Positions 2,106 to 21,025 of a stretch of DNA of 34,998 nucleotides are shown here, in pieces. Where the stretch lies: positions 1 to 34,998 of the forward strand of contig VXUF01000041.1 in the NCBI GenBank assembly GCA_009837085.1, read 5' to 3'. Position 1 is the stretch's first letter. Each line of letters opens with the position of its first letter. The notes under the pieces were generated by a model. The model ran no database searches and had not been told where the DNA came from. It saw only the letters and a program-made list of their open reading frames with translations. This stretch comes from Holophagales bacterium. GTDB taxonomy: Bacteria; Acidobacteriota; Thermoanaerobaculia; Multivoradales; Multivoraceae. A program made the translations under genes and the position numbers.

Positions 2106-2533
2106 AGAACCCACCTGAAGGCTGGCCGAGAATCTCGTCCTCTCTCTTCTACGACGACGCGGCAGCCGCGATCGACTGGTTGACCCGGGCGTTCGGATTC
2201 GCCGTGCAGGAGAGGGTCGAGGACGAGCAAGGGCGAGTCGTCCATTCGCAGCTCGGCCTGGACGGCGGCCTCATCATGGTCGGGCAGACGGGACTGCAGC
2301 CGGACCGGGAGTACCAGCAGTCTCCACGGGCGGTCGGCGGCGCGAACACGCAGTCCCTTGCGGTGTACGTCGACGACGCCGACGCGCACTGCGAGCGGGC
2401 GCGGGTGGCGGGCGCAGTCATCACGATGGAGCCAGCGACCCAGGACTACGGCGAGGGCTATTGGGTCGACCGGAGCTACGGAGCCCTGGACCTGGAGGGA
2501 CACCACTGGTGGTTCCTCCAGCGGCTGCGCTGA
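2102..2533 (+). CDS. VOC family (glyoxalase/bleomycin-resistance-like) protein
   Basis: A 143-residue single-domain vicinal-oxygen-chelate fold protein of the PhnB/glyoxalase-like type. The N-terminal half has the pattern SSSLFYDDAAAAIDWL, typical of the first beta-alpha-beta module. The second half has the YVDDADAH start of the second module and ends in LDLEGHHWWF, the usual last strand. Family members bind a divalent metal and act on small electrophiles or antibiotics, or have lost catalysis; the substrate cannot be read from the sequence. It overlaps the ABC ATPase stop by four bases (ATGA), so it probably belongs to the same transcript. A protective role alongside an exporter is a reasonable but unproven guess. 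Confidence 0.85.
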   Translation: MKNPPEGWPRISSSLFYDDAAAAIDWLTRAFGFAVQERVEDEQGRVVHSQLGLDGGLIMVGQTGLQPDREYQQSPRAVGGANTQSLAVYVDDADAHCERARVAGAVITMEPATQDYGEGYWVDRSYGALDLEGHHWWFLQRLR

Positions 2534-2560
2534 ACTATGCGCTCGCCTTCCTGTTTACGC

Positions 2561-2577
2561 CTTAGTTGCGCTAAGAT
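2561..2577 (+). promoter_or_regulatory. Dyad operator overlapping the -10 box of imuAB
   Basis: CTTAG-N5-CTAAG is a perfect 5-bp-arm dyad at 2561-2575. Its right arm overlaps a -10-like TAAGAT at 2572-2577. A -35-like TTCCTG lies 18 bases upstream at 2548-2553. It is the only obvious palindrome between the VOC gene and the imuA start at 2625. Because imuAB genes are typically under LexA control, this is a candidate SOS operator. It does not match the E. coli or Gram-positive LexA boxes and is closest in style to the TTAG-type box known from Xanthomonas. Confidence 0.45.
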
Positions 2578-2624
2578 GCTCTCTTCCCACTTCTACGTTT
2601 CTTCTCGTTTCGCTCCACGGCGCC

Positions 2625-3461
2625 GTGACTTCCCTGCCCGCAGCTCTCACCGACTCGCAGTGGCCGCGGTCCCTGGTGCGCCAGATCCAGCGCGGGCGGG
2701 ATCTGGTGAGCGGCGACGACCCGGCCGGAATCCATGAAGTAGAAGCTGACGTCTTCGCCACGCGGCTGGCCGGCGTCGACCGCCTGCTGGACGGCGGCAT
2801 CCGCCGCGGGCAGACGATCGAGCTGATCGGTCCCCGGAGCAGCGGCCGCTTCTCCCTGGTGCTGGAACTGCTGGCCGGGGCCACCGAAAGCGGTGAATCG
2901 GCGGCGCTGGTCGATCTGGGGGACCACTTCGATCCGCAGGCCGCGGCGCGCGCCGGGGTCGTCCTCGAACGGCTGCTCTGGGCACGGCCCAGGCGGCTGA
3001 AGCAGGCTCTGGGCAGCGCCGAGGTGCTGATCGGCGGCGGCTTCCCCCTGGTCGTGCTCGACCTCGGTCTACCGCCGGTCCCCGGCGGCCGCGGCAAGGA
3101 ATCGGCGTGGCTGCGACTGCGACGCGCGGCGGACGACCATCAGGCGGCGCTGCTGATCGCGGCGCCGTACCGCGCCAGCGGCACGGCGCCGCAGAAGATT
3201 CTCGATCTGGGGTCGCGAACGTCGCCGGCCCGTGCTCTCTGGGCGCGGGCCGCACCGAGGAGCCCACGCTTGCTCGACGGGCTCAGAACCCGGCTCGAAC
3301 TCGCCAAGTCGCGCGGCGAACGGCCGGGCGCCGCGGCCGAAGTCGAGCTGCGCGTTCTCGCAAGCAGCCTGCGACGCCCCCTGCCCGGCGCGCCGGCCCG
3401 TCGGACGGATAACCGCCACGCCGCCGGTACGCCGGTCGAAGTACTGAGACGTGCCGGCTGA
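2625..3461 (+). CDS. imuA: ImuA-like RecA-related protein of the mutasome
   Basis: A 278-residue RecA/SulA-like accessory protein placed directly before imuB; ImuA, ImuB and DnaE2 together carry out damage-induced mutagenic translesion synthesis. The core begins near residue 48 with LAGVDRLLDGGIRRGQTIELIG. The P-loop position reads GPRSSGRFS (69-77), in which the Walker Lys is replaced by Arg, so ATP binding may be weak or lost. A Walker B-like strand LVVLDLG follows. The C-terminal tail is basic and proline-rich. GTG at 2625 is chosen because it is the first plausible start after the promoter and operator, and no ATG or TTG in frame suits. The last 11 bases overlap imuB, indicating coupling. 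Assignment rests on the RecA-like core plus context, as ImuA proteins diverge quickly. Confidence 0.75.
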   Translation: MTSLPAALTDSQWPRSLVRQIQRGRDLVSGDDPAGIHEVEADVFATRLAGVDRLLDGGIRRGQTIELIGPRSSGRFSLVLELLAGATESGESAALVDLGDHFDPQAAARAGVVLERLLWARPRRLKQALGSAEVLIGGGFPLVVLDLGLPPVPGGRGKESAWLRLRRAADDHQAALLIAAPYRASGTAPQKILDLGSRTSPARALWARAAPRSPRLLDGLRTRLELAKSRGERPGAAAEVELRVLASSLRRPLPGAPARRTDNRHAAGTPVEVLRRAG

Positions 3462-5037
3462 ACGCAAGGCCCGCATCGCCTGCATGAAGGCGGCCCTCTT
3501 TCCACTTGCCGCCTACCTGCGGGGAGCGCCCGAACTCGCTCGCGAGGCGGTCGTGGTCCACGAAGGTCCGTCGGCCCGGATCGTCGCCGCCTCCCGGCTG
3601 GCGCGGCGAGCCGGAGTGCGGACGGGGCTGACCGTGGCCCAGGCCCGGAACATCGAGTCCGGTCTGGTCTCTCGCACCCGCGACCCCGAACGCGAGCACA
3701 CCGCGCAGGAGGTGCTGCTCGAGATCGCCGGCACCTTCTCGCCCCGGGTCGAGGACGGCGGCCAGGGCATGGTCTACCTCGACCTGGCCGGTATCCGTCC
3801 GGCATCCGCCGGGAACGGCGAGCACAGCCTCGGCCAGTCGATCATGCGAGACATGGACGCCGCCGGCCTCCCCGGCCGGGTCGGCATCGCCGGCAGCAAG
3901 CTGGCAGCGCGAGCGGCGGCCGCCCTGCCGCGGTCGCCGAACGTCGTGGCCCCCCGCGGCGAGGCCCGGTTTCTGGCGCCGTTGCCGCTCAAGTCCCTGT
4001 TCGAGGACGGTAACCGCGACCCCGACTCGGCGCAGGACGGCGACGACTTTGGAGTCCTCCACACGCTGAAGCTCTGGGGACTGCGCACGGTCGGCGACCT
4101 GGCCGGTCTGCCGGCAGCCGAGGTCCACAGCCGCCTCGGCGAGCGCGGCACGGCGCTCCATTCCGCCGCCCGGGGCTTCGACCCGGAGCCGCTCACTCCC
4201 CGGCCGCCGCCGCCCACCTTCCGCGAGTCGCAGACCTTCGAGTGGCCGATCGACAACCTGGAGCCGTTCCTGTTCGTCGCCCGCGGCGCCGTCTCCCGGC
4301 TGGCGGCCCGGCTCGACGCCCGGGGCATGGGCTGCAAGCGGCTCGAGCTGTCGCTCAAGATCGAGCCCGAGGGTCTCCACGAACTGGCCATCGAGCTGCC
4401 GGCACCCACGCGCGAGGCGCGGACGCTGCTGTCGCTGATCCGTCTCCACCTGGAAGCCGAGCCGCCCCGGGCGCCGATCACGTCGATGCAACTGCTCGCC
4501 CATCCCGACGTTCCGCGCCAGGCGCAGCTCAGTCTGCTCGGACCGGCCGCCCTGTCGCCCGACCGCCTGGCCGCCGTCACCGCGCGACTGCTCGCCCTGC
4601 TCGGGCCGAACCGGGTCGGCTCGCCGCGCACACGGAACGGCCACCTGCCGGAGCGTTTCCGCCTGGCCGACTACGACCCGCCCCCGCCGCCGCGGATCCG
4701 GCTCGAACCGAGGCCGGGTCGCGGCATGCTGGCGGTCCGCACCCTGCGGCCGCCGGTCGAGGTCGAGGTGCTGACCGCGGAGAGCGAAGAGACGGATCGC
4801 GTCGCGCCCTGCCCCGCACCGCGACAGATCAATCCGCTACCGACCGAGGACCGCCACGTCCGCATCGAGGGCACCGTCCGCACCGCCGCCGGACCCTGGG
4901 AAATCGAGGAGGGCTGGTGGCGAGAGGCCCCGGCGCTGCGGGACTACTGGGATGTCGAGTTGCGGAGCGGCGCCGTCTGCCGGATCTATCGGGACCGGAC
5001 GTCGGAGCGCTGGTTCGCGGACGGGGTCTACGACTGA
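3451..5037 (+). CDS. imuB: ImuB, catalytically dead Y-family polymerase-like protein
   Basis: A 528-residue Y-family polymerase homologue that serves as the hub linking DnaE2 to the beta clamp. The N-terminus has the IACMKAALFPLAA pattern of ImuB, which lacks the Asp residues of active Y-family enzymes. The usual SIDE motif region reads GMVYLDLAG, also without the catalytic Asp-Glu pair. A helix-hairpin-helix-like stretch (LKLWGLRTVGDLAGLP) lies near residues 205-225, then the little-finger region. QLSLL at residues 359-363 fits a beta-clamp-binding motif. The C-terminus (DYWDVELRSGAVCRIYRD) is typical of ImuB. GTG 3451 is preferred over the ATG at 3484 because the conserved IAC strand lies before that Met. 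It overlaps imuA by 11 bases. Confidence 0.9.
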   Translation: MPAERKARIACMKAALFPLAAYLRGAPELAREAVVVHEGPSARIVAASRLARRAGVRTGLTVAQARNIESGLVSRTRDPEREHTAQEVLLEIAGTFSPRVEDGGQGMVYLDLAGIRPASAGNGEHSLGQSIMRDMDAAGLPGRVGIAGSKLAARAAAALPRSPNVVAPRGEARFLAPLPLKSLFEDGNRDPDSAQDGDDFGVLHTLKLWGLRTVGDLAGLPAAEVHSRLGERGTALHSAARGFDPEPLTPRPPPPTFRESQTFEWPIDNLEPFLFVARGAVSRLAARLDARGMGCKRLELSLKIEPEGLHELAIELPAPTREARTLLSLIRLHLEAEPPRAPITSMQLLAHPDVPRQAQLSLLGPAALSPDRLAAVTARLLALLGPNRVGSPRTRNGHLPERFRLADYDPPPPPRIRLEPRPGRGMLAVRTLRPPVEVEVLTAESEETDRVAPCPAPRQINPLPTEDRHVRIEGTVRTAAGPWEIEEGWWREAPALRDYWDVELRSGAVCRIYRDRTSERWFADGVYD

Positions 5038-5045
5038 GAGGCAAG

Positions 5046-6224
5046 CTACGTCGGCCACAACCGACGGCGCACGAAGTCGTCGAACAAGGGCACAGTGAAG
5101 TCGATCTCGCCGTATCGGGGCGAATAGCAGAGCCCTTTCTCAATCAACTTGTGGCGCAGAGCTCCCACGCCCGGCGTATCCTTCCCCATCGCCGCGGCAA
5201 CCCGGCCGGAAGCATGCGGCCCCCTTCCAAGAGCAGCCATGGCGACCAGGTACTCACGTTCTCCGTCGCTCGTCCCGTCGACCCGGACCCGGAAGAACCC
5301 TGTGTCCAACTCATCGACCGCTAGTGGAACGCCCGCGTCGACATCAGCAGCCGTAATCCTGTCGGCGCCTTCGGCCACGTCCCACGACTGCTTGCCGAAC
5401 TCCTGGACGAAGTAGGGGTAGCCCTTCGTTTCGGCGACGATTCGGTCCAGCGCCTCGTCCACCCAAGCGACTCCCTCCCGCTCTGCCGGCGTCACCAGGG
5501 CAGCTCTGGCATCTTCCTCGCCGAGACTGTTGATCGTCCGGAAGTCGAACAGACGCTCGGCATACGACCTGGCCTCGGCGGCAAGCGCCGGCACCGACGG
5601 CAGGCCGGCCGCGACCAACAGAAACGGCAACTGGTTCTGACTGATCTGGTGCAAGCCGACGATCAGCGCGCCCAAGTCCTCCTTCTTCAGATACTGAACC
5701 TCGTCGAGTGTGATCAGCACGCCGCGGCCTCGCTCACGAGCCGCCTCGCCGACTTCGGTGAAGAGACCAGCCAGATCCTCGTCCAGAAGCCCGGAATCCG
5801 CCCACCCGGGCACGGAATCGAGGCCGACGGTCAGATCGCTTCCATCCGGGAGGTTCCATCTCATCTGGAACGACTTGAGCACTCCCAGCGCTCGGCGTAC
5901 ACGGTCGGCCATATCGTGAGCCGGAGAAAGGCGCAGGAGCACCTTGCGAACCAGGTCGGCCATGGCGTTGGGAAGGCTCATCCCACGGCCAGCCTCAAGC
6001 GGTCGGCAGACCCAGCCCCGCCCTTGCCCCAACCGACGGAACTCCTGCAGGAGGACCGTCTTGCCGACCCCACGAAGCCCGGTCAGGATCGTGCTCCTGG
6101 CCGGACGGCCGAGGCGAAGCCGCTCGATGGCGATACGGACCGCCTCAATCTCGGCGCCACGGCCTACAAGGGCAGGTGGAGGGCTTCCGGCACCAGGGCT
6201 ATAGGGGTTGCGAGTCGGGTCCAT
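5046..6224 (-). CDS. AAA/ORC-like ATPase with C-terminal winged-helix region
   Basis: A 392-residue P-loop ATPase of the archaeal-ATPase/ORC1-STAND group. Walker A is GLRGVGKT (49-56); Walker B is VLITLDEVQ with Asp174-Glu175. A sensor-like region follows (LLVAAGLPSVP), then a helical lid (TKGYPYFVQEFGKQSWD), and residues of about 325-390 look like a winged-helix domain ending in DFTVPLFDDFVRRRL. Members are thought to act as ATP-dependent regulators or DNA-binding switches; no specific function can be assigned. The ATG start lies only 6 nt after a perfect TATAAT, suggesting a leaderless transcript. The upstream region carries two tandem palindromic units, one overlapping the -35 region. The winged helix could bind these and autoregulate (inference). 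The gene converges on imuB with an 8-bp gap. Confidence 0.85.
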   Translation of the reverse strand: MDPTRNPYSPGAGSPPPALVGRGAEIEAVRIAIERLRLGRPARSTILTGLRGVGKTVLLQEFRRLGQGRGWVCRPLEAGRGMSLPNAMADLVRKVLLRLSPAHDMADRVRRALGVLKSFQMRWNLPDGSDLTVGLDSVPGWADSGLLDEDLAGLFTEVGEAARERGRGVLITLDEVQYLKKEDLGALIVGLHQISQNQLPFLLVAAGLPSVPALAAEARSYAERLFDFRTINSLGEEDARAALVTPAEREGVAWVDEALDRIVAETKGYPYFVQEFGKQSWDVAEGADRITAADVDAGVPLAVDELDTGFFRVRVDGTSDGEREYLVAMAALGRGPHASGRVAAAMGKDTPGVGALRHKLIEKGLCYSPRYGEIDFTVPLFDDFVRRRLWPT

Positions 6225-6230
6225 CCGCCG

Positions 6231-6259
6231 ATTATACGAAGTTGCCCTACTTTTATCGA
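6231..6259 (-). promoter_or_regulatory. Leaderless promoter of the ATPase gene
   Basis: On the minus strand the consensus -10 TATAAT occupies 6236-6231 and is followed by exactly six bases before the ATG at 6224. A weak -35 (TCGATA, four of six matches) lies 17 bases upstream at 6259-6254, inside the loop of palindrome unit 1. Transcription should start at or next to the initiating A, leaving no room for a Shine-Dalgarno site. Confidence 0.6.
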
Positions 6260-6293
6260 CTAGAGATAAAAGTAGGGCAGGCTGCTACAAGTT
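6237..6293. repeat. Palindromic repeat, unit 1 (perfect)
   Basis: A perfect inverted repeat with 15-bp arms: TGCCCTACTTTTATC at 6243-6257 and its complement at 6265-6279, separated by a 7-base loop (6258-6264). The flanks (CGAAGTTGC on the left, CTGCTACAAGT on the right) recur in unit 2 at an offset of exactly 79 bases. The AT-rich arm is unlike its GC-rich surroundings. It covers the -35 region of the ATPase promoter, so an operator role is likely. There is no U-tract, which argues against a terminator. Confidence 0.8.
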
Positions 6294-6315
6294 TGTGGGT
6301 TGCGGATCACTTATA

Positions 6316-6372
6316 GGAAGTTGCTCAGCTTTTACTGTCTCGGGGTAAAACCGGAGCAGACCGCTACAAGTA
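6316..6372. repeat. Palindromic repeat, unit 2 (degenerate tandem copy)
   Basis: The second copy of the unit at 6237-6293, displaced by 79 bases. Its arms (6322-6335 and 6345-6358) match at 12 of 14 positions around a 9-base loop. The flanking GAAGTTGC and GCTACAAGT are kept. On the minus strand it also has a TATAAG hexamer (6316-6311) at the place corresponding to the TATAAT of unit 1. It therefore looks like a duplicated promoter-operator module, now further from the gene. Confidence 0.75.
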
Positions 6373-6421
6373 GGCCCTTCGCGGCCTAGCTGAAGATCAA
6401 CCGTATCGGCGCCGGCACGCC

Positions 6422-6811
6422 TCAATCGGCCAGCGGAGCGGGTCGGGACGCTTGGCCCGCAATCACCTGCTCCGCCACCACTCGGCCGCCGATCAGGTGC
6501 TCCTGGATCACCCGTTCCAGAACCTCGGGCGTGCAGCCCCAGTACCAGACACCCTCCGGATAGACGACCGCGATCGGGCCGGCGTCGCAGATGCGCAGGC
6601 AGTTCGCCTTCGTCCGCATCACCGTGCCGGACTCGGTGAGGCCCAGTTCGAGCAGCCGGCGCTTGAGGTAGTCCCAGGACTCGAGCGACAACTCCCGGTC
6701 GCAGCACTTCGGCTTCGTCTGGTCGCAGCAGAGGAAGATATGCCGCCGCACGTTGGCGATGCCGATCGCCGCCGCCTTGAGGCGGGCGCGCTCGAGAGCC
6801 TCGGGGTCCAT
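6422..6811 (-). CDS. Thioredoxin-like [2Fe-2S] ferredoxin
   Basis: A 129-residue protein of the thioredoxin-like 2Fe-2S ferredoxin family (related to the NuoE cluster domain). Cluster-ligand candidates are Cys28/Cys29 and Cys36/Cys37 in [12 protein letters not shown], and Cys71 and Cys75 in NCLRIC. The region [25 protein letters not shown] is typical of the C-terminal half of these small ferredoxins. It would act as a cytoplasmic electron carrier; the partner is not evident. ATG at 6811 is taken as the start because family similarity begins shortly after it; the open frame extends far upstream antisense to other genes. It is divergent from the VOC gene at 6854 with 42 bp between. It reads toward the ATPase, separated from it by the palindromic repeats. 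Confidence 0.85.
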
Positions 6812-6840
6812 GGCGGCGATGATTCCATGACCTCGGTCGA

Positions 6841-6846
6841 TAGGCT
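6841..6846 (+). promoter_or_regulatory. Candidate -10 box, VOC gene
   Basis: TAGGCT ends seven bases before the ATG at 6854. This is the same TANNNT-plus-start arrangement seen at four other genes in the window. No good -35 is visible 16-18 bases upstream. Confidence 0.35.
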
Positions 6847-6853
6847 GTGCTCC

Positions 6854-7228
6854 ATGAAGCTCTACGAAGCCGCCTACCCGTTTCAGGACGACGTGCTGGC
6901 CCTGCCAGTCGAGGATCTCGACGCCACGGCACAGTGGTACGCGGACGCCTTCGGGCTCCAGGAAGTCGAGCGCCGCGAAGAGCCCGTGCCAACGGTCATC
7001 CTCGAGCGCGACGGCGTCCGCATCGGTTTCGCGATCAACGGCGGCGACGCCAGCATGGACGGCGCCGCGATCCTGGTCACCGACATCAAGGCGGCGCGGG
7101 CCGAGTTGAAGAGCAACGGCGTCAAGGTGAAGAACTGGCGCATCGATAAGCGCGACGGCAAGAAGTTCCGGGTCTTCTTCGTCGTGGCGCCGGACGGGCT
7201 CTGCTACTACTTCCATCAGCAGGTCTGA
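6854..7228 (+). CDS. VOC family protein
   Basis: A 124-residue single-domain vicinal-oxygen-chelate protein. The first module has [20 protein letters not shown], the hallmark opening of glyoxalase/bleomycin-resistance folds. The second begins [15 protein letters not shown] and ends in [12 protein letters not shown]. The substrate is unknown. It starts seven bases after a TAGGCT box, so its transcript may be leaderless. It is divergent from the ferredoxin gene and followed 18 bases later by a secreted TPR protein, with which it may be co-transcribed. It is unlike the VOC protein at 2102 in sequence, so the two are not a recent duplication. Confidence 0.85.
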
Positions 7229-7246
7229 ACGGCAGCTAGCTGGAGC

Positions 7247-8953
7247 ATGACTCGTTCCCACAACGGGCTCGCGGCCATCGTCGCGCTTCTGCTGATCGCC
7301 CCGCTGCCCGCCGCCGCCCAGGACTTCGCCGAACTCCTGGAGATCCGCCGCGTCAAGGAGACGCTGGACCTGAACCAGGTGCCGGAGCCGGATCTTTCCC
7401 AGCTGCCCGCGGTCGACGCCCAGCGGCTCCGCGACTACAGGACGCTCACGGCCGGCGCCCTGCAACATGCCGCCGAGCCCCTGCAGGCGCAGTTGGCGGC
7501 GAACACCTTCGGTGATCTCTGCGCGCGCTACCTGCACTACGAGCTGCACGACGCGGCGGCGGTCTGCCTGGACCAGCTCAGGGAGCTGGCGCCCGCGGAC
7601 TTCCAGTGGGCCTACTTCAAACTGCTGTTGCAAATCGCTTCCGGAGACCTCGAAGGGGCGGTAGCAGCCGCTGAGGAGGCGCTGGCCATCCGGCCGGACG
7701 ATCCGTCGACGCTCATCCGCCTCGGCGAACTCCAGGTGGCTGCCGGCGACGTCGACGCTGCCGAAGCCGCCTACGAGGCCGCGATCGCGGCCTACCCGGA
7801 GAGCGCCACGGCCCGCGTCGGGCTGGGCTACATCGCCCTGGAGCGGGGCGACCCGGCCAAGGCGCTCCAGATCTTCCAGGAAGTCGCCGCGTCCCAGCCC
7901 GAAGGCAGTGAGGCGAATCACCACGTCGGTCTCGCCTACCGCGCCCTGGGCGACGCCGACCGGGCCGCCGAGGCGTGGCGGCTGAACCAGGACGTCCTGA
8001 TCCCGATGTACGACCCGCTGCTCGAACGGCTGCGGCCGCTCGAGGAGGACGTCACGCTGCCGCTCGACCGCGCCGTCGCCGCGGCCGCAAAGGGCGACCA
8101 CGAACGGGCCGTCATGCTGTACGAGGAGATCCTCGCAACGAACGAGGCAGACGACGAGGCTCACTTCCGGCTGGCCGGTTCACTGCTCGCTCTCGGCGAT
8201 GCCGGACGCGGCGAAGGCCATCTGCGCCGGGCAATCGCCCTCAGCCCTGAACACCCCGGGGCGCACTTCGCCCTGGCGATGCTGCTCGCTCGGGAGGGCC
8301 GCCGCACCGAAGGCGCCCAACACCTGGAGCGGGCGGTGGACCTGGCGCCGGAGAACCTCTCCTGGCGCCTGCAGCGGGCGCAGGTAAGGGCCTCCTCCGG
8401 CAACACCGCCGGCGCCGTCGAAGAACTCGAGCAGATAGTCGCCCAGGACCCCGGAATGGTCGAGGCGCGACGGATGCTCTCCGCCGTGCTGGTCGGCGCT
8501 GGCAGGACCGAAGAAGCCGCCGTCCAGTTGCAGGCCCTGGTCGCGCTAACGCCGGACGATCTGCAGGCGCGCTTCAACCTCGGACTCATGCTGTTCGAGA
8601 CCGGCCGCTACGCGGACGCGCGCCGAACTCTCGACGACACCCTCGGACGCTTCCCCGGCGACGTCGCCACGCGTCACCTGCTGGCGCGCCTGCTCGCGGT
8701 CAGCCCCGATGACGCGGTCCGGGACGGCGCGCGGGCCGTGGACCTTGCACAGAGCGTCGTCGACGAGCAGCCGGCGGTCGATCATCTCGAGACGCTGGCG
8801 ATGGCCCTGGCCGAGGCTGGCCGATTCGACGACGCGGTCTCCTGGCAGCAACGGGCGCTCGAACGGGAACGCCAGGCCGCCGGCGGCAACTCGCCGCAAC
8901 GGCTCGACCGGCTGGCGCTCTACCAGGCCCGCCAGCCGCTACGGGCACCCTGA
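7247..8953 (+). CDS. Secreted tetratricopeptide-repeat protein
   Basis: A 568-residue protein with an N-terminal signal peptide (hydrophobic core [17 protein letters not shown], cleavage probably after AAA, near residue 24) and an alpha-helical remainder built of TPR units. Clear repeats include [74 protein letters not shown] and [19 protein letters not shown]. It probably works in the periplasm or at the envelope as a protein-protein scaffold. Its TPR region resembles the C-terminal part of the CRTAC1/ASPIC protein at 13643-17884, so the two may belong to the same type of system (inference). It converges with the GYD gene with a 25-bp gap. The ribosome binding site is poor: the GGAG lies too close to the ATG. 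Confidence 0.85.
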
Positions 8954-8978
8954 CGGCGCAGGAAGCTCCGGCTCGGGT

Positions 8979-9299
8979 TCAGGCGCCAGGCGCGCGGTAG
9001 GGCACGCTCTTCGCGACCGCGCCGTCGATCTCCTCCGGAGTCATCAGGACGCGCATCGTCACCTTGATGCCGCCGCCGGCGTTCAGGGTCATTGAGACCG
9101 CGACCGCGGTCTCGTTGTCCGGAAGGTCGACGATCATCAGCAGGTCGGCGCCACCGAACGCGTAGTAGATGGCCTCCACCGTGCCGCCTGCGCCCTCCAC
9201 GGTCTCGCTGAGCGCCTTCCGGCGACTGCTGCCGCCTTCCTGGATCAGGCCCTGGACGCCGGTGTGAGTGTAGTTCGCCTCGATCAGATACTTCGCCAC
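8979..9299 (-). CDS. GYD domain protein
   Basis: A 106-residue GYD-family protein that begins (M)AKYLIEANYT and contains VEAIYYAFGGADLLMIVDLPDN and TMRVLMTPEEID. Family members are small proteins of unknown function with a ferredoxin-like fold. The open frame can start as far up as 9362, but I choose the GTG at 9299: the family N-terminus begins exactly there, and a GGAG lies eight bases upstream. This gene therefore uses a normal Shine-Dalgarno start, unlike several neighbours. It is divergent from dnaE2, with 131 bp between them that hold the dnaE2 promoter. Confidence 0.8.
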   Translation of the reverse strand: MAKYLIEANYTHTGVQGLIQEGGSSRRKALSETVEGAGGTVEAIYYAFGGADLLMIVDLPDNETAVAVSMTLNAGGGIKVTMRVLMTPEEIDGAVAKSVPYRAPGA

Positions 9300-9395
9300 T
9301 TCCACTTCTCCTGTTGCTCGACGGCGTGAATCGGTTAGCGCCGTGCCGGGTTCGTTCTGCATGTTGCCACACGAGAACGGACGTGCCTCCCGATC

Positions 9396-9424
9396 TTGCC
9401 TTCCGTTACCGCCTGATTTACGCT
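9396..9424 (+). promoter_or_regulatory. Leaderless promoter of dnaE2
   Basis: TTGCCT at 9396-9401 and TACGCT at 9419-9424 are separated by exactly 17 bases, and six bases separate the -10 from the ATG at 9431. No Shine-Dalgarno site is present. The CTTAG-N5-CTAAG dyad of imuA is not repeated here, although the segment around 9411-9425 shares a CCTG/TTTACGC string with the imuA upstream region. Confidence 0.55.
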
Positions 9425-9430
9425 TGACGG

Positions 9431-12862
<3,432 letters not shown>

Positions 12863-13642: not shown

Positions 13643-16600
13643 CTACCGGCCGCGGACGGGAACCCCCTGCCGGTACTGCTCGAGCCTGCGGCTCAGCAGC
13701 TCGAGCAGCCGCTCCCGGTCGGGCGAGTCGTTTCGCGCGTCACCGACGATCTCGAGCGCCTTCGCCACTGTCCGCGCCGCCGTTTCGAAGTCGCCGGTCT
13801 CGGCCTGGGCGGCCGCCAGGGTTTCGAGCAGAGCCGGCTCGGCGCCACCAGTGACGGCGTTCAGTTCGAGCGCGATCAGGAGGGCGAGCTGGCCGTCGCG
13901 CCGGCCGGCGTCCGGATGGGTCGCCAGGGTCCAGGCGATGTCGTTGCCCCGCGCCAGGAGGTTCCGGTCCTCGACGTAGGCGCGACGCAGGTGTTCCGCG
14001 CCCTCGGCGGCGCCGGCCGGACCGCCGCGGATCAGGGCCAACCCGAGTTCGTGGAGCCCCGCGGCGTGATCAGGGTCGTGCGAGAGCAGCGCCCGGTAGT
14101 TCTCGATCGCCTCTTCCACGCGGCCCGCGGCGGCCGCGATCCGGGCCGCTCCGTAGAGCGCCTCCGTGTCCTGCGGTTCGACTTCGAGGATCGCCCGGTA
14201 GTGTCCCCAGGCGGCGCCGAGCTCGTCGCTGCGGACGGCGGCTTCCGCCAGGATCCGGTGCGCTTCGACGTGGCGCGGATCGAGCGTGACGACGGCCGCG
14301 AACTGCTCCATCGCCTCCCGCAGGCGCTCCGCCTTGCCGAGCAACTGGCCGTAGAGGTACCGCAGTTCCACGTCCCGCGGGTTCTCTTCGACCGCGCGGC
14401 CGAGCTCGCGGACCGCGTCGTCCGTGCGTCCCTCCCGGTCAAGCAACTCGGCAAGACGCACCCGGGCCGCCACGTCTCCCGGATCGGCCGCGAGCGCGGC
14501 CTCGGCCTGCGCCCGTACCGAGCCCGTGTCGCCGGCGTCGAGGAGGGCGTTCTGGTACGCCGCCCGCGCGGCCGGATCGTCGGGTTCGAGATCGAGGGCG
14601 GCACGGGCGTACCGGGCTGCGGCTTCGTTGTCCCCACGCCGGCCTTCGAGCACCGTCAGGCGCTGGAGCGACTTGAAGAGGCGGTCCCGCGCCCCCTGCC
14701 GCTCGAACGACGCTCTGGCGCCCTCGTCGAGACGCGCCTGCTCGACCTCCACCGAACGCCGCAGCAGGACCACGGACTCCTCGGGAAACCGCTCCTCGTA
14801 CCAGCGCGCGTGGCTCGCGAGCGACACCTCGTCCGGCGGCTCCGTGTACCACCGGCCTGGGAGCGGGACCGACGCGGCCCGCAGGTCGGAATCCCGCGCG
14901 TCGAGCAGTTCGAGGTCGGCAATCAGGTCACTGGCAGTGACGCCTCCCCGGTAGAGCACGGCGACCCGGCCCTCGCCATCGAGCAGCATGGAGAACGGCA
15001 GCGACAGCGGGAAGCGACGGTCGAACAGCGATCTCTTGACGATCTCGACCTTGTCCAGCGTCTCCCCGGTCGCCATGCCGTTCAGGAACGGGAAGCGGAT
15101 CTCGTCCATGAAGCTCCGCGCCGCCGCTTCGGTCGTGGTCGGCACGTCGCCCATGCCGTCCGTCGACAGCGCGGCGATCTCAAGACCCGCGGAACGGAGC
15201 GCATCCTCCTCGTTCGCCAGGTCCTGGAGTTCGAAACGGCAGGGAACGCACCAGCTCGCCCAGATGTTGACCAGCACCGGCCGGCCTTGACCCGCCTCGA
15301 CCGCGACCGGTTCCGAGGCGTCGAAAGATCGGAGCGTCAACGAAGGGGCCGGCGGACGCGGCGCCAGCACGACACGTGCGCCAGTGGTCGCCGCCGGCGG
15401 CTCCTGGGCACGCGGCATCAACGGTGTTTGCCTCGGCGGTCCCGGCACGGCCTCTGCGCCGCCGCTGCCCTGGACGATCCGGTAGCGGCCCCCGGCCTCG
15501 ACGCCGGAGAACGTCTCGCTGCCTCCCCCGGGCCAGCGGACGCTCACCGGACCCGAAACCTCGCTGTCACCGAGACCGAAGTGGAGCCAGCGGCTCGACT
15601 GCGAGAGGAAACCCTCGCCGGCGCGGACGGATCGGCGGAGGATGCCGGACGAGGTTGGGACTTCCACCCGCGCTCCGACCGCGTCCCGGTTCGTACCGGC
15701 GCCGTCTCCCTCCAGATGCAGGGCGACGAAGCGTCGCCCCGCCGGCAACTCATTCCGCATCAGCCGCAACCGTGGCGCGGTCCGGTTGCTGATCGCCACG
15801 TCCAGGTCGCCGTCGCCCTCCAGGTCGAGGAAACCGACGCCGCGGCCGTCGTCCGGGAAGTCCAGGCCGCTCACCGCCGACGCGTTGGCGAAGGCGCCGC
15901 CGGCTTCACCGGGGTTCAGAAAGACGCAGTTGCGCTCGTTGCCGCTGAACGAAAGGCCCTCGTCGAGCCGTTCGTGGAGCGCCCGAAGGGATTCGAGATA
16001 CGGCTCCAATGCGCGGTCATCCGGCGAGCCGTCATCCAGGACCTTGGGCGCGCGCGGCACGACCTGCCGCCAGAAGAAGCTTCACAGGTCGTCCGGGAGG
16101 GTCTGAGTCAGGTTGCCGTTGGCGACCACCAGGTCCTCCCAGCCGTCGTTGTTGATGTCGGCGAAGACGGACGACCAGGACCAGCGGCCCATCGTGACGT
16201 TGGCGTCCACGCTGCGATCATGGAAGCCGCCGCCCGAAGTACCCGCGAACAGCGAGTTGCCGCGCGCCATCCGCTGAACTTCCGCCAGCGGACCGGCGCG
16301 CTGCCGGTCGCGTTCGAACTTCCGCTGGTAGGTGATCCGGTTGCCGGCGGCGGAGAACATGTTGCCGACGTAGACATCCATCCGCCCGTCGCGGTTGTAG
16401 TCGGCCCAGCTCACCGACATGCCGGACGAGATGTCCTCGACGCCCGCCTCCCCGGCCACGTCGACGAAGCGACCGCCGTCGTTGCGGTACAGGTTGTTGC
16501 GGCCGTAGTCGTTCGCCACGTAGAGGTCCGCGTCGCCGTCGCCGTCGATGTCCTCCCAGGACGCGGCCAGGCTGAAACGGCGGTTGTTCACATCGAGTCC

Positions 16601-17884
16601 CGCCTCGACGGTCGCATCGACGAAGCGGAAGCCGCCGTCATTGCGCAGCAGCGCGTTGCGGCCGCCGTTGTTCGCGTCGTGGTACGGCACGGGACTGGCG
16701 ACGCCCCGCTCGTCGTAGGCACGCCGGTAGGCGCAGATGTAGAGATCGAGGTCGCCGTCGCCGTCGTAGTCCGCGGCCGACAGCGAGTTGCTGTCAGGGA
16801 TGTTGCCGGCGATGTGGCGAACGCGGGTAAAGCGGCCACTGCCGTCGTTCTCCAGCACCAGCACGGCGGGCCGGCTGGACAGGACGAGGTCCGGATCGCC
16901 GTCATTGTCCAGATCGACGAACAGCCCGGCGAGGGCCCGTTCCAGGTAGTCGACCGCGGCTTCGGCGGAGCGGTCGTCGAACGTGCCCTTCCGGTTCTGA
17001 ACATAGAGGCGGTTCGGCAGGCCGCCCTGCTCGGGAAGGAAGATGTCGTCCAGCCCGTCCCCGTTGACGTCGGCCACCGACACGCCCTGCCAGCCGGTCT
17101 TGTTGTAGCCCGCCGCCTTCGGGATCCGGTTGAGCCAGGCGTCGGGCGACTGCAGCAACTGGTCCTGGTAGCTCGGGTTGTGGCCGACGGCGGCTTCGGT
17201 GACGTCGACGAGAAGCGGGTCGCGGGGAGTCGACGTCTCTTCGTAGTCGGAAACCTCTACCCTCAGCAGCAACGGAACGCCGGCGCCGTCCGCGGGCAAC
17301 CTCCAGATGGTCGACCAGACGGCGTTCAACTGGCGGCTGCCGGCCGGCCCCGCGACCGAGGCCTCGAAGTGCGCAAGGGTCGTGAACCCGGCGGAGCCAG
17401 CGTCGACCGAGTAGAGCTTGAAGTCCGCCCGCGGCGGCCGGTCGCCGGCCAGCCGATCGGCGAGAGCGCCGAGTGCGCGCCTGAAGCCCTCGGCGCCGCG
17501 CCAGGCGACTTCCGCGTCACCCACGCTTCCGCTCTCGACGGTGAAGGCCGTGCCCCGGTAGCGCGCGGTCAACTCGCCGGGCACGAATCCCGGCGACTCG
17601 AAAGCCTGATCGACGACCGACGCGACGTCCCCTGACGGCACTGCATCGGGGCCATCCGCGGCAACGTCCGCGAGCCATGCCGCGACCCTTTTGAGCTGGG
17701 CCTCAGCCTGTTCGCTGAGCGCCTCGGTGTCCCAGCCGTCGGCCCGCGGATCGACCGCGGCGGCGAAGTTCTCGGTCTCGAAGGCAGGGGTGACTTCCGC
17801 CTGCCTGCTCTGCGCCAACGCCGCGGCCGGAGCGACCGCCACTGTGAGCACGAGGACGACTCGGAAGATCCGCACCGCCGACAC
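13643..17884 (-). CDS. CRTAC1/ASPIC-thioredoxin-TPR secreted protein, in-frame UGA
   Basis: One continuous frame of 1414 codons broken by a single UGA at codon 601 (16084-16082). Upstream part (17884-16082): signal peptide (VVLVLTVAVAPAAALAQ), a 250-residue unassigned region, then FG-GAP/VCBS repeats with Ca-binding DVNGDGLDD, DLDNDGDPD, DYDGDGDLD, DIDGDGDAD and DINNDGWED. Downstream part (to 13643): the end of the propeller (DLEGDGDLD), an ASPIC/UnbV domain (VRWPGGGSETFSGV), a TlpA-like thioredoxin domain with WASWCVPC (Cys879, Cys882), and many TPRs. Sequence reads smoothly across the UGA (LPDDL, UGA, SFFWRQVV), and the downstream part has no signal peptide or ribosome binding site of its own. 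I therefore treat it as one gene. If UGA is a true stop, these are two ORFs (16082-17884 and 13643-16060) and probably a broken gene. Confidence 0.7.
16054..16070 (-). promoter_or_regulatory. SECIS-like hairpin after the UGA
   Basis: Starting 12 bases after the UGA, the message can form a perfect 6-bp stem GCGGCA/UGCCGC closing a five-base loop GGUCG. The apical loop begins 18 bases after the UGA with G-G-U. In the E. coli fdhF SECIS the loop is AGGUCU in almost the same place. It meets the usual bacterial rule (G in the first two loop positions, loop 16-37 bases from UGA). The bulged U of fdhF is absent. Folding was done by eye. Confidence 0.5.
16082..16084 (-). other. In-frame UGA, candidate selenocysteine codon
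   Basis: The only stop codon in a frame otherwise open from 17884 to 13643. It falls inside a conserved-looking stretch between two propeller segments, not at a domain boundary. The following hairpin resembles a bacterial SECIS element. I cannot confirm from memory which residue homologues have here; Cys would support selenocysteine. Confidence 0.5.
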
Positions 17885-17903
17885 TCTAACGTTCCCGCTC
17901 TTC

Positions 17904-17909
17904 TATGAT
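17904..17909 (+). promoter_or_regulatory. -10 box of the molybdoenzyme gene, leaderless
   Basis: TATGAT ends six bases before the GTG at 17916. No Shine-Dalgarno site and no good -35 are visible. The 31-bp gap to the divergent CRTAC1-type gene means the two promoters must overlap. Confidence 0.5.
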
Positions 17910-17915
17910 CGGCTA

Positions 17916-20126
17916 GTGAGCCCCAGCCCGCGGACCCCCTTTGGCCTGGGGCAAACCAAGCCGCGCCACTACCTGGAAATGGCCAAGGTGGCCTGGCGGA
18001 ACCGGGACGAAGCGGGCTATGCATGGCGCATCCTGCGGGACGGCGTCTGCGACGGCTGCGCCCTGGGGACCTCGGGGCTGCGCGACTGGACGCTTGACGG
18101 CGTGCACCTGTGCATGGTCCGGCTCGATCTGCTGCGGCTGAACACGATGCCGGCCCTCGACCCGACGCTGCTCGCCGACGCCGGAGCCCTTGCCGCACGC
18201 GGCTCGACGGCCTTGCGCGGCCTGGGACGACTGGCGCACCCGATGCTGCGTCGGGCCGGCGAGCCGGGTTTCCGGCGCGTATCCTGGCCCGAGGCGATCG
18301 ACGTCGCCGCCACGGGGCTGGCCAGAGTCCGCGAACGCGACCCCACGCGCGCGGCCTTCTTTCTGACCTCGCGCGGCATTCCCAACGAGACCTACTACGT
18401 CGCGCAGAAAGCCGCGCGGTTCTTCGGCACCCCCCACGTCGACACGGCCGCACGCCTCTGCCACGCCGCGTCGACCATCGCGCTCAGGCGTGCCTTGGGG
18501 GTCGGCGCGGCCACGAACTCCTATCGCGACTGGCTCGATGCGGACCTGATCGTGTTCTTCGGCTCCAACGTGCCGAACAACCAGCCGGTCACCATCAAGT
18601 ACCTTCACTTCGCGCGCCGCCGCGGCACGGAGATCGCGGTAGTGAACCCCTACCGGGAACCCGGCCTCGACCGCTACTGGGTGCCATCGGTCCCCTCGAG
18701 CGCCCTGTTCGGCACCGACCTCGCCGAACACTGGTTCGCCGTGGATACGGGTGGCGATCTCGCCTTCCTCAACGGGACGATGAAGGCACTGCTCGACCGT
18801 CCGGGAGGGGTCGTTCGCGATTTCGTCGAACCCTCAACCGAGAACTTCGCCGAGGTCGAAACGGTCCTTCGCGACACCTCCTGGGAGACGATCGAGCGCT
18901 CCAGCGGCACTCCCCGCGCCGAGATGGAACGCTTCGCTGACCTTCTCCACTCCAGACCGAAGACGATCCTGGTCTGGTCGATGGGGCTGACCCAGCACCG
19001 TCACGGCGTCGACACCGTGCTGGCGCTCACCAACCTGGGCCTGATGCGCGGGCTTCCGGGCAAGGCCGGAGCCGGCCTTGTGCCGATTCGAGGCCACTCC
19101 GGAGTGCAAGGGGGTGCCGAGGTCGGCTGCACCCCGGAATCGGACACGGAGATCCTCGACCGCTGGGCGGACGCCTGGGGCTTCGAGCCGCCGCGCGGCC
19201 CCGGCCTGGCAGCCACCGGGCAGATCGAAGCGGCGGCGGCCGGTGCGATCGACGCGTGGTGGATCGTCGGCGGCAACTTCCTCGAGACGGCGCCGGAACC
19301 CGAACGCCAGAAGAGCGCCCTGCATCGGCCCGCGCTTCGCATTCACCAGGATGTCGTACTGAATACCGCGATGCTGGTTGAACCGAGCGACACCGTGCTG
19401 CTGCTGCCAGCCACGACGCGCTACGAGATCCCCGGCGGGGTCACCGAAACGACGACCGAGCGACGCATCGTCTACTCGCCCTCGATTCGCCACGACGGCG
19501 CCGAAAGCCGAAGGCTCGGCGAGTGCAGGCCGGAGTGGGAAGTGCTCTGTGAGGTCGTCTCCCGGGTGCGTCCCGATCCTCCCGGCGTCCTCGGTTTCGC
19601 CGGCACCGAGGCCATACGGACCGAGATCGCGGCTACCGTGCCCCGCTACGCCGGGATCGAGAACCTGAAGCGAAAGGGCGACCAGTTCCAGTGGGGCGGC
19701 GCCCAACTGTTCGAGGACGGGCGCTTCGCCACGCCATCCGGCCGCGCGAGGTTCCATGGGGTCGAACCGCCGGCGGATCGCGAGCTACTCGACGGTGAGC
19801 TCTTCCTCTCCACGCGACGTGGGCGACAGTTCAACTCGATGGTCCACGCCGGGCGGGATCCCCTGACCGGCCTCGAGCGCTCCGACCTGCTGATGAACGC
19901 GGAGGATGGGCGGGCACGCGGCATCGGGGCCGGCGAGCGGGTCGTCGTCTCGTCGCCGGTGTCGCGGATCGAGTTCGTCGCCCGCTTCGGGCAGATCAAG
20001 GCCGGCAACGTCGAAGCGCACTGGCCCGAATGCATGGAACTGCTGCCCTGGTCCCTGGACCCCGACTCCGGCGAGCCGGAGTATGGCGTCCGCGTCCGGG
20101 TCGAACGAACGGAAGCCCTGGCGTGA
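17916..20126 (+). CDS. YdeP-like molybdopterin oxidoreductase (FdhF-related)
   Basis: A 736-residue molybdenum-bis-MGD enzyme of the YdeP / 'oxidoreductase alpha (molybdopterin) subunit' group. Near the N-terminus VCDGCALG supplies Cys residues of a reduced Fe-S site. AARLCHAAST aligns with the Mo-ligand region of formate dehydrogenase H (RVUHGPSV), giving Cys182 where FdhF has selenocysteine. Later hallmarks are FFGSNVPNNQPVTIKYL, WSMGLTQHRHGVDTV and RGRQFNSMVHAGRDPLTG. The GTG at 17916 follows a TATGAT by six bases; upstream codons are antisense to the divergent CRTAC1-type gene. The gene ends in a GTGA overlap with fdhD, whose product delivers sulfur to such cofactors. The natural substrate is unknown; YdeP is linked to acid resistance in E. 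coli. Formate activity is not implied. Confidence 0.9.
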   Translation: MSPSPRTPFGLGQTKPRHYLEMAKVAWRNRDEAGYAWRILRDGVCDGCALGTSGLRDWTLDGVHLCMVRLDLLRLNTMPALDPTLLADAGALAARGSTALRGLGRLAHPMLRRAGEPGFRRVSWPEAIDVAATGLARVRERDPTRAAFFLTSRGIPNETYYVAQKAARFFGTPHVDTAARLCHAASTIALRRALGVGAATNSYRDWLDADLIVFFGSNVPNNQPVTIKYLHFARRRGTEIAVVNPYREPGLDRYWVPSVPSSALFGTDLAEHWFAVDTGGDLAFLNGTMKALLDRPGGVVRDFVEPSTENFAEVETVLRDTSWETIERSSGTPRAEMERFADLLHSRPKTILVWSMGLTQHRHGVDTVLALTNLGLMRGLPGKAGAGLVPIRGHSGVQGGAEVGCTPESDTEILDRWADAWGFEPPRGPGLAATGQIEAAAAGAIDAWWIVGGNFLETAPEPERQKSALHRPALRIHQDVVLNTAMLVEPSDTVLLLPATTRYEIPGGVTETTTERRIVYSPSIRHDGAESRRLGECRPEWEVLCEVVSRVRPDPPGVLGFAGTEAIRTEIAATVPRYAGIENLKRKGDQFQWGGAQLFEDGRFATPSGRARFHGVEPPADRELLDGELFLSTRRGRQFNSMVHAGRDPLTGLERSDLLMNAEDGRARGIGAGERVVVSSPVSRIEFVARFGQIKAGNVEAHWPECMELLPWSLDPDSGEPEYGVRVRVERTEALA

Positions 20127-21025
20127 AGCCGGCCGCACCCGAGACGCGAGCAGAGCGCAGCGCACTGGTCGAGCGCTCCGGCGATCTCGGGCGCGACGTG
20201 GTAGCGGTCGAGGAACCGCTCGAGATCCGGGTCGACGGCGAGGCCGTCGTCGTGACGATGCGCAGCCCCGGCGCGGAGCGGGACCTCGCGCTTGGATACC
20301 TCCACGCCGAAGGGCTGATCGAGCAAACGGCCGATGTCGAGGACGTGATCGTGGGCGGAGCGCCGCGGCGGGACGAGACGTCGCCGCCAGACGTCGAGCC
20401 GGCCGTCACCGGATCGATCGTCGACGTCCGGCTCTCGGCAAGGGGACGCCGGGCGGTGAGCCGCCGCGCCGAGACCAGGAAGCGGGAACGAGCCTTCCGG
20501 GTCACCAGCGCTTGCGGAGTCTGCGGCAAGCCCTCGCTCGAGGACCTGTGGGTGCGGCTGCCGTCGATCCGGCCGCTCGACCTGGCGCCGGACCGCGAGC
20601 GGCTCCTGGTCCAGGAACTGCCGGCGGCCATGCAGGAGGGCCAACCCCTCTTCGGCGACACGGGCGGCGTTCATGCGGCGGCCCTGTTCGAGGTCGCCGG
20701 CGGGCAGCCCGAACTGCTATGGCTTCGCGAAGACATCGGACGCCACAACGCGGTCGATAAGGTCGTAGGCAAGGCGCTACGGGCGAACCGGCTGCCTCTT
20801 TTCGACACGATCCTCGCGGTCAGCGGTCGGCTCGGTTTCGAGATCGTGCAGAAGGCGGCGGTGGCCGGCATCCCGGTGCTTGCCGCGGTCGGCGCGCCGT
20901 CGAGCCTGGCCCTGGACATCGCCCACCTGGCCGGCATCCGCGTCTACGCTTTCGTCGCCGCCAACCGCAGCAATCTCTATCCCGCCGCGCCGGTCGAAGC
21001 GCGGCGACTGGGCAGTTCCGATTGA
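20123..21025 (+). CDS. fdhD: FdhD, sulfurtransferase for formate dehydrogenase-type molybdoenzymes
   Basis: A 300-residue FdhD protein that transfers sulfur from a cysteine desulfurase to the molybdenum cofactor before insertion into FDH-like enzymes. The catalytic pair is Cys131 and Cys134 in SACGVCGK. The conserved nucleotide- and cofactor-binding block REDIGRHNAVDKVVG and the terminal LAGIRVYAFVAANRSNLY are present. GTG 20123 overlaps the stop of the molybdoenzyme gene by four bases, so the two proteins are made together, and the upstream enzyme is its obvious client. FdhD is usually about 270-300 residues. The gene's stop lies within the -35 region of the next promoter. Confidence 0.95.
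   Translation: MKPAAPETRAERSALVERSGDLGRDVVAVEEPLEIRVDGEAVVVTMRSPGAERDLALGYLHAEGLIEQTADVEDVIVGGAPRRDETSPPDVEPAVTGSIVDVRLSARGRRAVSRRAETRKRERAFRVTSACGVCGKPSLEDLWVRLPSIRPLDLAPDRERLLVQELPAAMQEGQPLFGDTGGVHAAALFEVAGGQPELLWLREDIGRHNAVDKVVGKALRANRLPLFDTILAVSGRLGFEIVQKAAVAGIPVLAAVGAPSSLALDIAHLAGIRVYAFVAANRSNLYPAAPVEARRLGSSD

Follow-up and report, generated by a model that had tools for sequence, protein, structure and literature searches.

Does the UGA that interrupts the large reading frame on the minus strand of this DNA end a protein, or is it a selenocysteine (Sec) codon within one? The stretch analysed here, referred to as the window, comprises 34,998 nucleotides of contig VXUF01000041.1 from a Holophagales bacterium. 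The frame runs from 17884 to 13643 on the minus strand, and its 1,413 codons contain a single internal TGA at 16084-16082, which corresponds to residue 601. It had been claimed in the original prediction that two ORFs in the same frame are joined through one UGA. This was borne out, with an upstream ORF (17884-16082) of 600 aa and a downstream ORF (16060-13643) of 805 aa, both on the minus strand. The features of the locus are as follows.

13643..17884, minus strand: whole reading frame of the CRTAC1-like / TlpA-like / TPR protein, 1,413 codons with one internal UGA
17810..17884, minus strand: hydrophobic, signal-peptide-like N-terminus (judged by eye)
15731..17236, minus strand: FG-GAP beta-propeller of the CRTAC1 type, containing the UGA (domain and structure comparison)
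16082..16084, minus strand: in-frame UGA, residue 601, predicted selenocysteine codon; the column is TGA in 108 of 109 loci
16054..16070, minus strand: SECIS-like hairpin, stem 16070-16065 / 16059-16054 and loop GGUCG at 16064-16060, the loop following 17 nt after the UGA
15482..15682, minus strand: UnbV_ASPIC domain, residues 735-801
14954..15352, minus strand: AhpC-TSA / TlpA-ResA-like thioredoxin domain, residues 845-977, with the motif WASWCVPC (Cys 879 and Cys 882)
14033..14545, minus strand: TPR repeats, residues 1114-1284

The signal-like N-terminus and most of the propeller are encoded before the UGA; the rest of the propeller, the UnbV_ASPIC domain, the AhpC-TSA domain and the TPRs follow it. 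FG-GAP repeats and the UnbV_ASPIC domain both scored over the Pfam cut-offs and the fold is that of CRTAC1, which places the product among the CRTAC1-like proteins, and it is probably exported. Both flanks of the UGA evolve as coding sequence in one shared frame, with a pN/pS of 0.087 upstream (17 genomes) and of 0.136 downstream (15 genomes, calculated without L055 and L062). Among 49 matches to related genes in the same genome, the stop occurs in this copy only, the other 48 being free of internal stops.

The sequence just after the UGA was then compared with known recoding signals. After 17 nt comes a loop GGUCG on a 6-bp stem GCGGCA/UGCCGC (16070-16054), so that the perfect stem and loop originally described at this place could be confirmed. 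The loop presumably resembles that of the E. coli fdhF SECIS. According to PMC13188914, a bacterial SECIS (bSECIS) has a loop of 3-9 nt, a stem of 4-16 bp, a G in the first two loop positions, a spacing of 16-37 nt and an MFE of at most -7.5. With a loop of 5 nt beginning GG, a stem of 6 bp, a spacing of 17 nt and an MFE of -11.6 kcal/mol, the hairpin of the window passes all of these published constraints. Within this GC-rich gene, 326 of the 1,391 codons are followed by a stem of 6 bp or more whose MFE passes. A loop beginning GGU at exactly +17 is found after two of the 1,391 only, the UGA itself being one of the two. Because such hairpins are common within one GC-rich gene, relatives were compared; taken alone the hairpin is weak evidence, and it is the comparison with relatives that is decisive.

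In the first set of relatives, 108 of 109 loci had TGA at this very column, and the remaining one (L070, dropped) ends before the column. Among the matches listed in 98 genomes, the own genome included, the UGA form was present at this column in 19 of the genus's 21 genomes; in one of the remaining two the match runs into a contig end short of the column, and in the other weaker paralogues alone were seen. The UGA form also occurs in other families of the order and in one other order, at 41-61% identity. When named genomes were scanned and the best 80 matches kept, all 79 loci had TGA at the column (38 Verrucomicrobiota, 31 Planctomycetota, 7 Acidobacteriota, 1 labelled Pseudomonadota and 2 unplaced). 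TGA stood at the column in 22 further divergent loci too; these had been chosen for a TGA already listed, so that only its position is new information (L154, L155, L163 and L165 were dropped from this divergent set).

Nineteen MAGs of Planctomycetota and Verrucomicrobiota were also scanned. Of the 150 rows listed, 140 contained exactly one TGA and 10 had no stop, while TAA or TAG was seen in none of them. The column was inspected in 30 MAG loci, which partly repeat genes of other sets, and was TGA in all 30. Copies bearing the UGA were numerous: by eye, and among the rows listed, there were at least 23 in G103, a 9.2-Mb MAG that may be a mixture, at least 15 in each of G098 and G116, and at least 13 in G105, and some other MAGs may be strain mixtures. 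The alignment behind both scans (A1) was built from UGA genes only, and only best or listed rows were considered; the scan counts are therefore not unbiased rates. The loci overlap in part (genes of L046-L064 recur as L075-L080 and L087, and L189-L218 include some already present among L081-L144), and the per-genome counts of UGA matches, tRNA-Sec and MAG copies were made by eye. Among the matches listed in the 98 genomes, a TAG accompanies the TGA in one (G036) and stands alone in another (G044), so some copies may be broken. As the original prediction expected, the UGA column is conserved among relatives, and this extends across families and phyla.

Contig NHBP01000056.1, 90 kb long and from a Planctomycetaceae MAG, carries three UGA-bearing paralogues (L099, L136, L141), and at least five UGA places are listed on contig C105 of G106, which suggests local expansion.

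If the hairpin serves recoding, it should be kept at the RNA level. In 130 UGA loci, a GGTC was found after 17 nt in 105, after 20 nt in 14 and at neither place in 11. The loci of the first kind of hairpin (type A) numbered 116 and gave 85 distinct sequences. All six pairs were kept, G-U allowed, in 70 of the 85, against a mean of 2.29 and a maximum of 10 in 500 runs of a synonymous-codon null, and the GGTC loop was kept in 74 of the 85, against a null mean of 21.6 and a maximum of 32. The covariation score was 0.207; shuffled alignments gave 0.100 +/- 0.011 and none of 500 reached the observed value, although the shuffles ignore relatedness, and slid controls, which keep it, gave 0.019-0.071. 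The fourth stem pair is seen as G-U, A-U, G-C, C-G and U-G. Fourteen cells had changed on both sides of the stem, a number that was reached by none of 500 shuffles. Other counts were less extreme, the number of pairs with double changes being reached by 20 of 500 shuffles and that of further pair types by 26 of 500. RNAalifold returned no consensus structure for all 85 hairpins, and four pairs at -3.17 after five odd rows had been dropped. The MFE limit was reached by 90 of 98 distinct sequences of the family and missed by 8.

A second kind of hairpin (type B) has its GGTC 20 nt beyond the UGA and is closed by another stem, GYGC/GCRC; this holds for 14 of 14 loci (L171-L180, L184-L186 and L188). 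The stem is GCGC/GCGC or GUGC/GCAC around GGUC, with changes on both sides, and the protein sequence after the UGA differs from that of type A, such as LPYILGAVAHID. Judged by sequence comparison, the hairpin and its GGUC loop are conserved beyond what the protein code demands. By these measures the hairpin is under selection at the RNA level, RNAalifold on the 85 rows apart. The covarying hairpin that had been anticipated in relatives was thus found, its GGUC loop mostly kept.

Three loci (L170, L182, L183) show a third form, ELPVDL-UGA-SNFWRAVV and similar, in which by eye a GCGC-type stem closes on GGUC, with one mismatch in L183. L181 and L187 (PDG-UGA-SCVWRVAVSQ) are UGA forms without a GGTC loop at the usual place.

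The machinery for Sec was sought in the same genomes. In the own genome, SelB (361.6 bits, with its neighbour), SelA (440.8 bits) and SelD (245.4 bits) were all over cut-off, as was a tRNA-Sec with anticodon UCA (73.5 bits); the genome thus holds the whole set of SelA, SelB, SelD and tRNA-Sec. SelB was over cut-off in 91 of the 98 genomes. A tRNA-Sec at E 7.4e-12 or better was found in 90 of the 98, weaker matches possibly being serine tRNAs, as L009 is; the eight genomes without a strong one include the UGA-bearing G013 and G070. In the 19 UGA-bearing MAGs of other phyla, SelA was over cut-off in 15 and tRNA-Sec reached at least 60 bits in 14, and one or the other was present in 18. Neither SelA nor a strong tRNA-Sec was found in MAG G107, though it bears the UGA. 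Taken together, the UGA occupies one column, the family extends across three phyla, and the genome carries the Sec machinery.

We next consider which residue replaces the UGA in homologues. Of 120 database homologues, five had no aligned column and were dropped, and the most distant ones are aligned with less certainty. In the remaining 115 the column was Asp in 40, Ser in 15, Glu in 14, Cys in 11, Gly in 9 and Asn in 6, among others, and Trp in one. The two best full-length close relatives, P0002 (60% identity) and P0004 (57%), have Cys. Ten distant non-UGA paralogues were fetched from UGA-bearing MAGs, and in the nine that aligned (L228 was dropped) the residue was Cys in eight and never Trp. 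In nine aligned non-UGA homologues of the own class it was Leu, Glu or Pro, and never Cys. Homologues with Cys at the Sec site therefore exist, Cys being one of several replacements. The expectation that the column would be either Cys or UGA held for 11 of 115 database proteins and eight of nine paralogues, and failed for the nine homologues of the own class and for the databases at large, where Asp, Ser and Glu prevail. The original prediction had also named, as evidence against itself, varied residues other than Cys together with a missing hairpin. Such varied residues do occur, and the hairpin is missing only from genes without the UGA (the GGTC loop was present in none of nine non-UGA homologues).

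Among the Cys-bearing paralogues (L219-L226), six of eight carry another Cys five positions further along (as in CTHFWC), which could possibly form a disulfide or a metal site.

An AlphaFold model (pLDDT 91.9, pTM 0.92) puts the site at the very start of a helix, 576-586 (model numbering). The model accordingly predicts that Sec begins a helix set into the propeller, where a reactive selenolate would be favoured. Thioredoxin-fold enzymes hold their reactive Cys at a helix start, and helices are classically capped by Asp, Ser, Asn and Gly. The presence of such residues at the column may be read as lineages giving up Sec and keeping the helix cap. On a tree made without the column, from rows in which similar sequences had been thinned to 200, there are at least 16 changes between UGA and non-UGA forms. 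Repeated loss would fit this number, repeated gain being the other reading.

The second half of the protein offers a possible partner for the Sec. A motif [WFY]x(0-4)CxxC lies 200-400 residues downstream of the UGA in 104 of 104 UGA genes judged (those with 330 or more residues beyond the UGA, near-identical copies included), compared with 27 of 102 non-UGA homologues; 26 of the 130 UGA loci, among them all 14 of type B, were too short for this count. Divided by the residue at the column, the motif was found in 1 of 34 Asp forms, none of 6 Asn forms and 4 of 11 Cys forms. In an alignment of 57 rows, only four have a gap where the second Cys would stand, which indicates that the TlpA-like domain is often retained while its cysteines go. 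The association of UGA with CxxC has a Fisher p of 1.3e-33 when descent is ignored. With relatedness allowed for, it is not significant: seven independent pairs remained, of which 3.9 went the same way and none the opposite way (median p 0.125), and a second tree of 123 sequences left four independent pairs and likewise no significance. The C-terminal domain matches structures of the ResA type (4nmu, 2f9s and 1st9, E 3e-9 to 8.5e-9). It falls short of membership in the NCBIfam TlpA model NF047696 (44.1 bits, against a cut-off of 230), so that the domain is best described as resembling TlpA/ResA. The co-occurrence of the CxxC motif with the UGA leads us to infer that the fused thioredoxin domain would reduce oxidised Sec.

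Since the UGA is accompanied by a covarying hairpin, in a genome with SelA, SelB, SelD and tRNA-Sec, the gene is most likely a selenoprotein gene. As a whole, the data are best explained if SelB and the hairpin direct Sec into a propeller of the CRTAC1 type, an account that we hold to be very probable. According to this account, SelB and the hairpin would direct insertion of Sec at the UGA, residue 601; the Sec would then serve as nucleophile in a redox reaction, the obvious candidates being reduction of a peroxide, a disulfide or a sulfoxide; and the fused TlpA/ResA-like domain would regenerate the Sec through its WCxxC motif. The redox role and this relay in cis are inferences, with the co-occurrence described above in their support. 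That a new selenoprotein family was plausible had been said at the outset, and the conserved UGA column and covarying hairpin now support it. We have high confidence that the family is real and apparently uncatalogued, Sec incorporation and the redox role being predictions.

Another possibility is that the UGA is a true stop and that two proteins are made, the second starting by coupling or reinitiation at a GTG that begins at the 22nd nt past the UGA. The downstream ORF had been said to have no ribosome binding site. This needs amending, as an AGG sits 2 nt ahead of the GTG, within the hairpin, and the downstream piece of 805 aa is stored in databases as a protein (P0068, P0071). Such a stop would, however, split a single propeller fold mid-way, and homologues with Cys, Ser or Asp at the column are one chain. 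TAA or TAG would serve an ordinary stop just as well, yet TGA is the sole stop in the 140 stop-bearing rows listed. Moreover, the GGUC loop and its spacing fit recoding by SelB, and the type-B genes keep such a hairpin despite a different local protein sequence. It therefore seems improbable that two separate proteins are made. We give the same low standing, jointly, to reading of the UGA by an ordinary tRNA (for Trp, for example) with the hairpin as a stimulator, and to a switch in which selenium decides whether the short or the long product is made. Near-cognate tRNAs that read UGA are known in general. Ordinary readthrough needs no Sec machinery, though, and SelA or a strong tRNA-Sec is present in 18 of the 19 UGA-bearing MAGs; the eight Cys among nine paralogues, and a single Trp among 115 database homologues, also speak against it. 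A switch is compatible with all the data, because insertion of Sec competes with termination.

Errors of sequencing or assembly, or a pseudogene, might be suspected since the data come from MAGs, the stop is confined to this copy among the 49 matches of the own genome, and the copy of one relative (G036) bears a TAG as well. This explanation is already contradicted by the recurrence of the codon in 108 of 109 loci, drawn from numerous assemblies and three phyla (the one exception is truncated), and by purifying selection downstream of it (pN/pS 0.136), and we regard its probability as negligible. Hardly any weight can be given either to a reassignment of UGA throughout the genome, to Trp or Gly for example, for which no support was found in these data. 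The gene has one UGA, at the same column in every alignable UGA locus; 48 of the 49 related matches in the own genome, and the matches to SelA, SelB and SelD, contain no internal stop; and the set of SelA, SelB, SelD and tRNA-Sec is there. Insertion of Sec is thus preferred as the explanation of the UGA.

Selenoproteins with a bSECIS, of the type of the E. coli formate dehydrogenase, are alike in the UGA with an immediate hairpin, the G in the first loop positions and the distance of 16-37 nt, as well as in the genomic Sec machinery and some Cys-containing relatives. They differ in that the Sec here lies in a beta-propeller, not in a thioredoxin fold. Compared with CRTAC1 itself (cartilage acidic protein 1, mouse structure 9etn), the bacterial protein adds an N-terminal domain before the propeller, the TlpA-like domain, the TPRs and the predicted Sec. 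With the extracytoplasmic thiol-disulfide oxidoreductases TlpA, ResA and DsbE it shares the structure matches of the C-terminal domain and the WCVPC motif; in contrast to them, the domain is fused to a propeller and is far below the cut-offs of the NCBIfam models. The ResA-like WAxxUGC proteins (NF041054) also combine selenium with a TlpA/ResA fold, to judge by the name of the model, which the C-terminal domain matches weakly (31.7 bits, against a cut-off of 300). Their Sec is inside the thioredoxin motif, whereas here the motif is WCxxC and the predicted Sec lies 278 residues upstream.

The catalogue of bacterial selenoproteins comprises 119 families according to PMC13188914, and FG-GAP, ASPIC, UnbV and CRTAC1 are absent from its Table 1 and from its text where searched. 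The S9 table of PMC4807772 is one of selenoprotein candidates of planctomycetes. Among 25 of the 32 NCBIfam models matched, no selenoprotein model was over its cut-off. No CRTAC1, FG-GAP or ASPIC selenoprotein appeared in the literature titles or abstract beginnings searched, and a full text or supplement could contain one. CRTAC1-like selenoproteins, with more than 1,000 residues, would tend to be stored as two fragments because a Sec UGA is easily misread as a stop, and the 805-aa database pieces show such splitting for the gene of the window.

As a bacterial selenoprotein the candidate is notable for its fold, probable export, copy number and spread. Its fold would be new among the bacterial selenoproteins listed in PMC13188914, and the selenoprotein count of some MAGs of Planctomycetota and Verrucomicrobiota could rise by ten to twenty genes. 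We lean slightly towards a wider reading, held here as a single joint proposition, that a large class of selenoenzymes has been overlooked: exported propellers of the CRTAC1 type with a catalytic Sec at a helix start and TlpA-like recycling in cis, in up to 23 genes per genome in Planctomycetota, Verrucomicrobiota and Acidobacteriota, split in catalogues. If true, this would be among the largest expansions of a single selenoprotein family and would place selenium chemistry outside the cytoplasm. To our knowledge, no biochemical activity has been established for the bacterial CRTAC1-like proteins, and the predicted redox chemistry offers a testable handle on their role.

Two groups of neighbouring genes may be mentioned. 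Divergent to the candidate selenoprotein gene, at 17691-21025 on the plus strand, are a gene for a molybdopterin oxidoreductase of the formate-dehydrogenase type and an FdhD/NarQ gene. Formate dehydrogenase is often a selenoprotein elsewhere; the oxidoreductase of the window has Cys, and no stop, in the stretch ARLCHAAST, which we take to be its active-site motif. Also on the plus strand, at 2358-12862, a RecA-like gene is followed by an IMS/Y-family polymerase, then a TPR gene and then a polymerase of the DnaE type, a gene set that is presumably an ImuA-ImuB-DnaE2 mutagenesis cassette.
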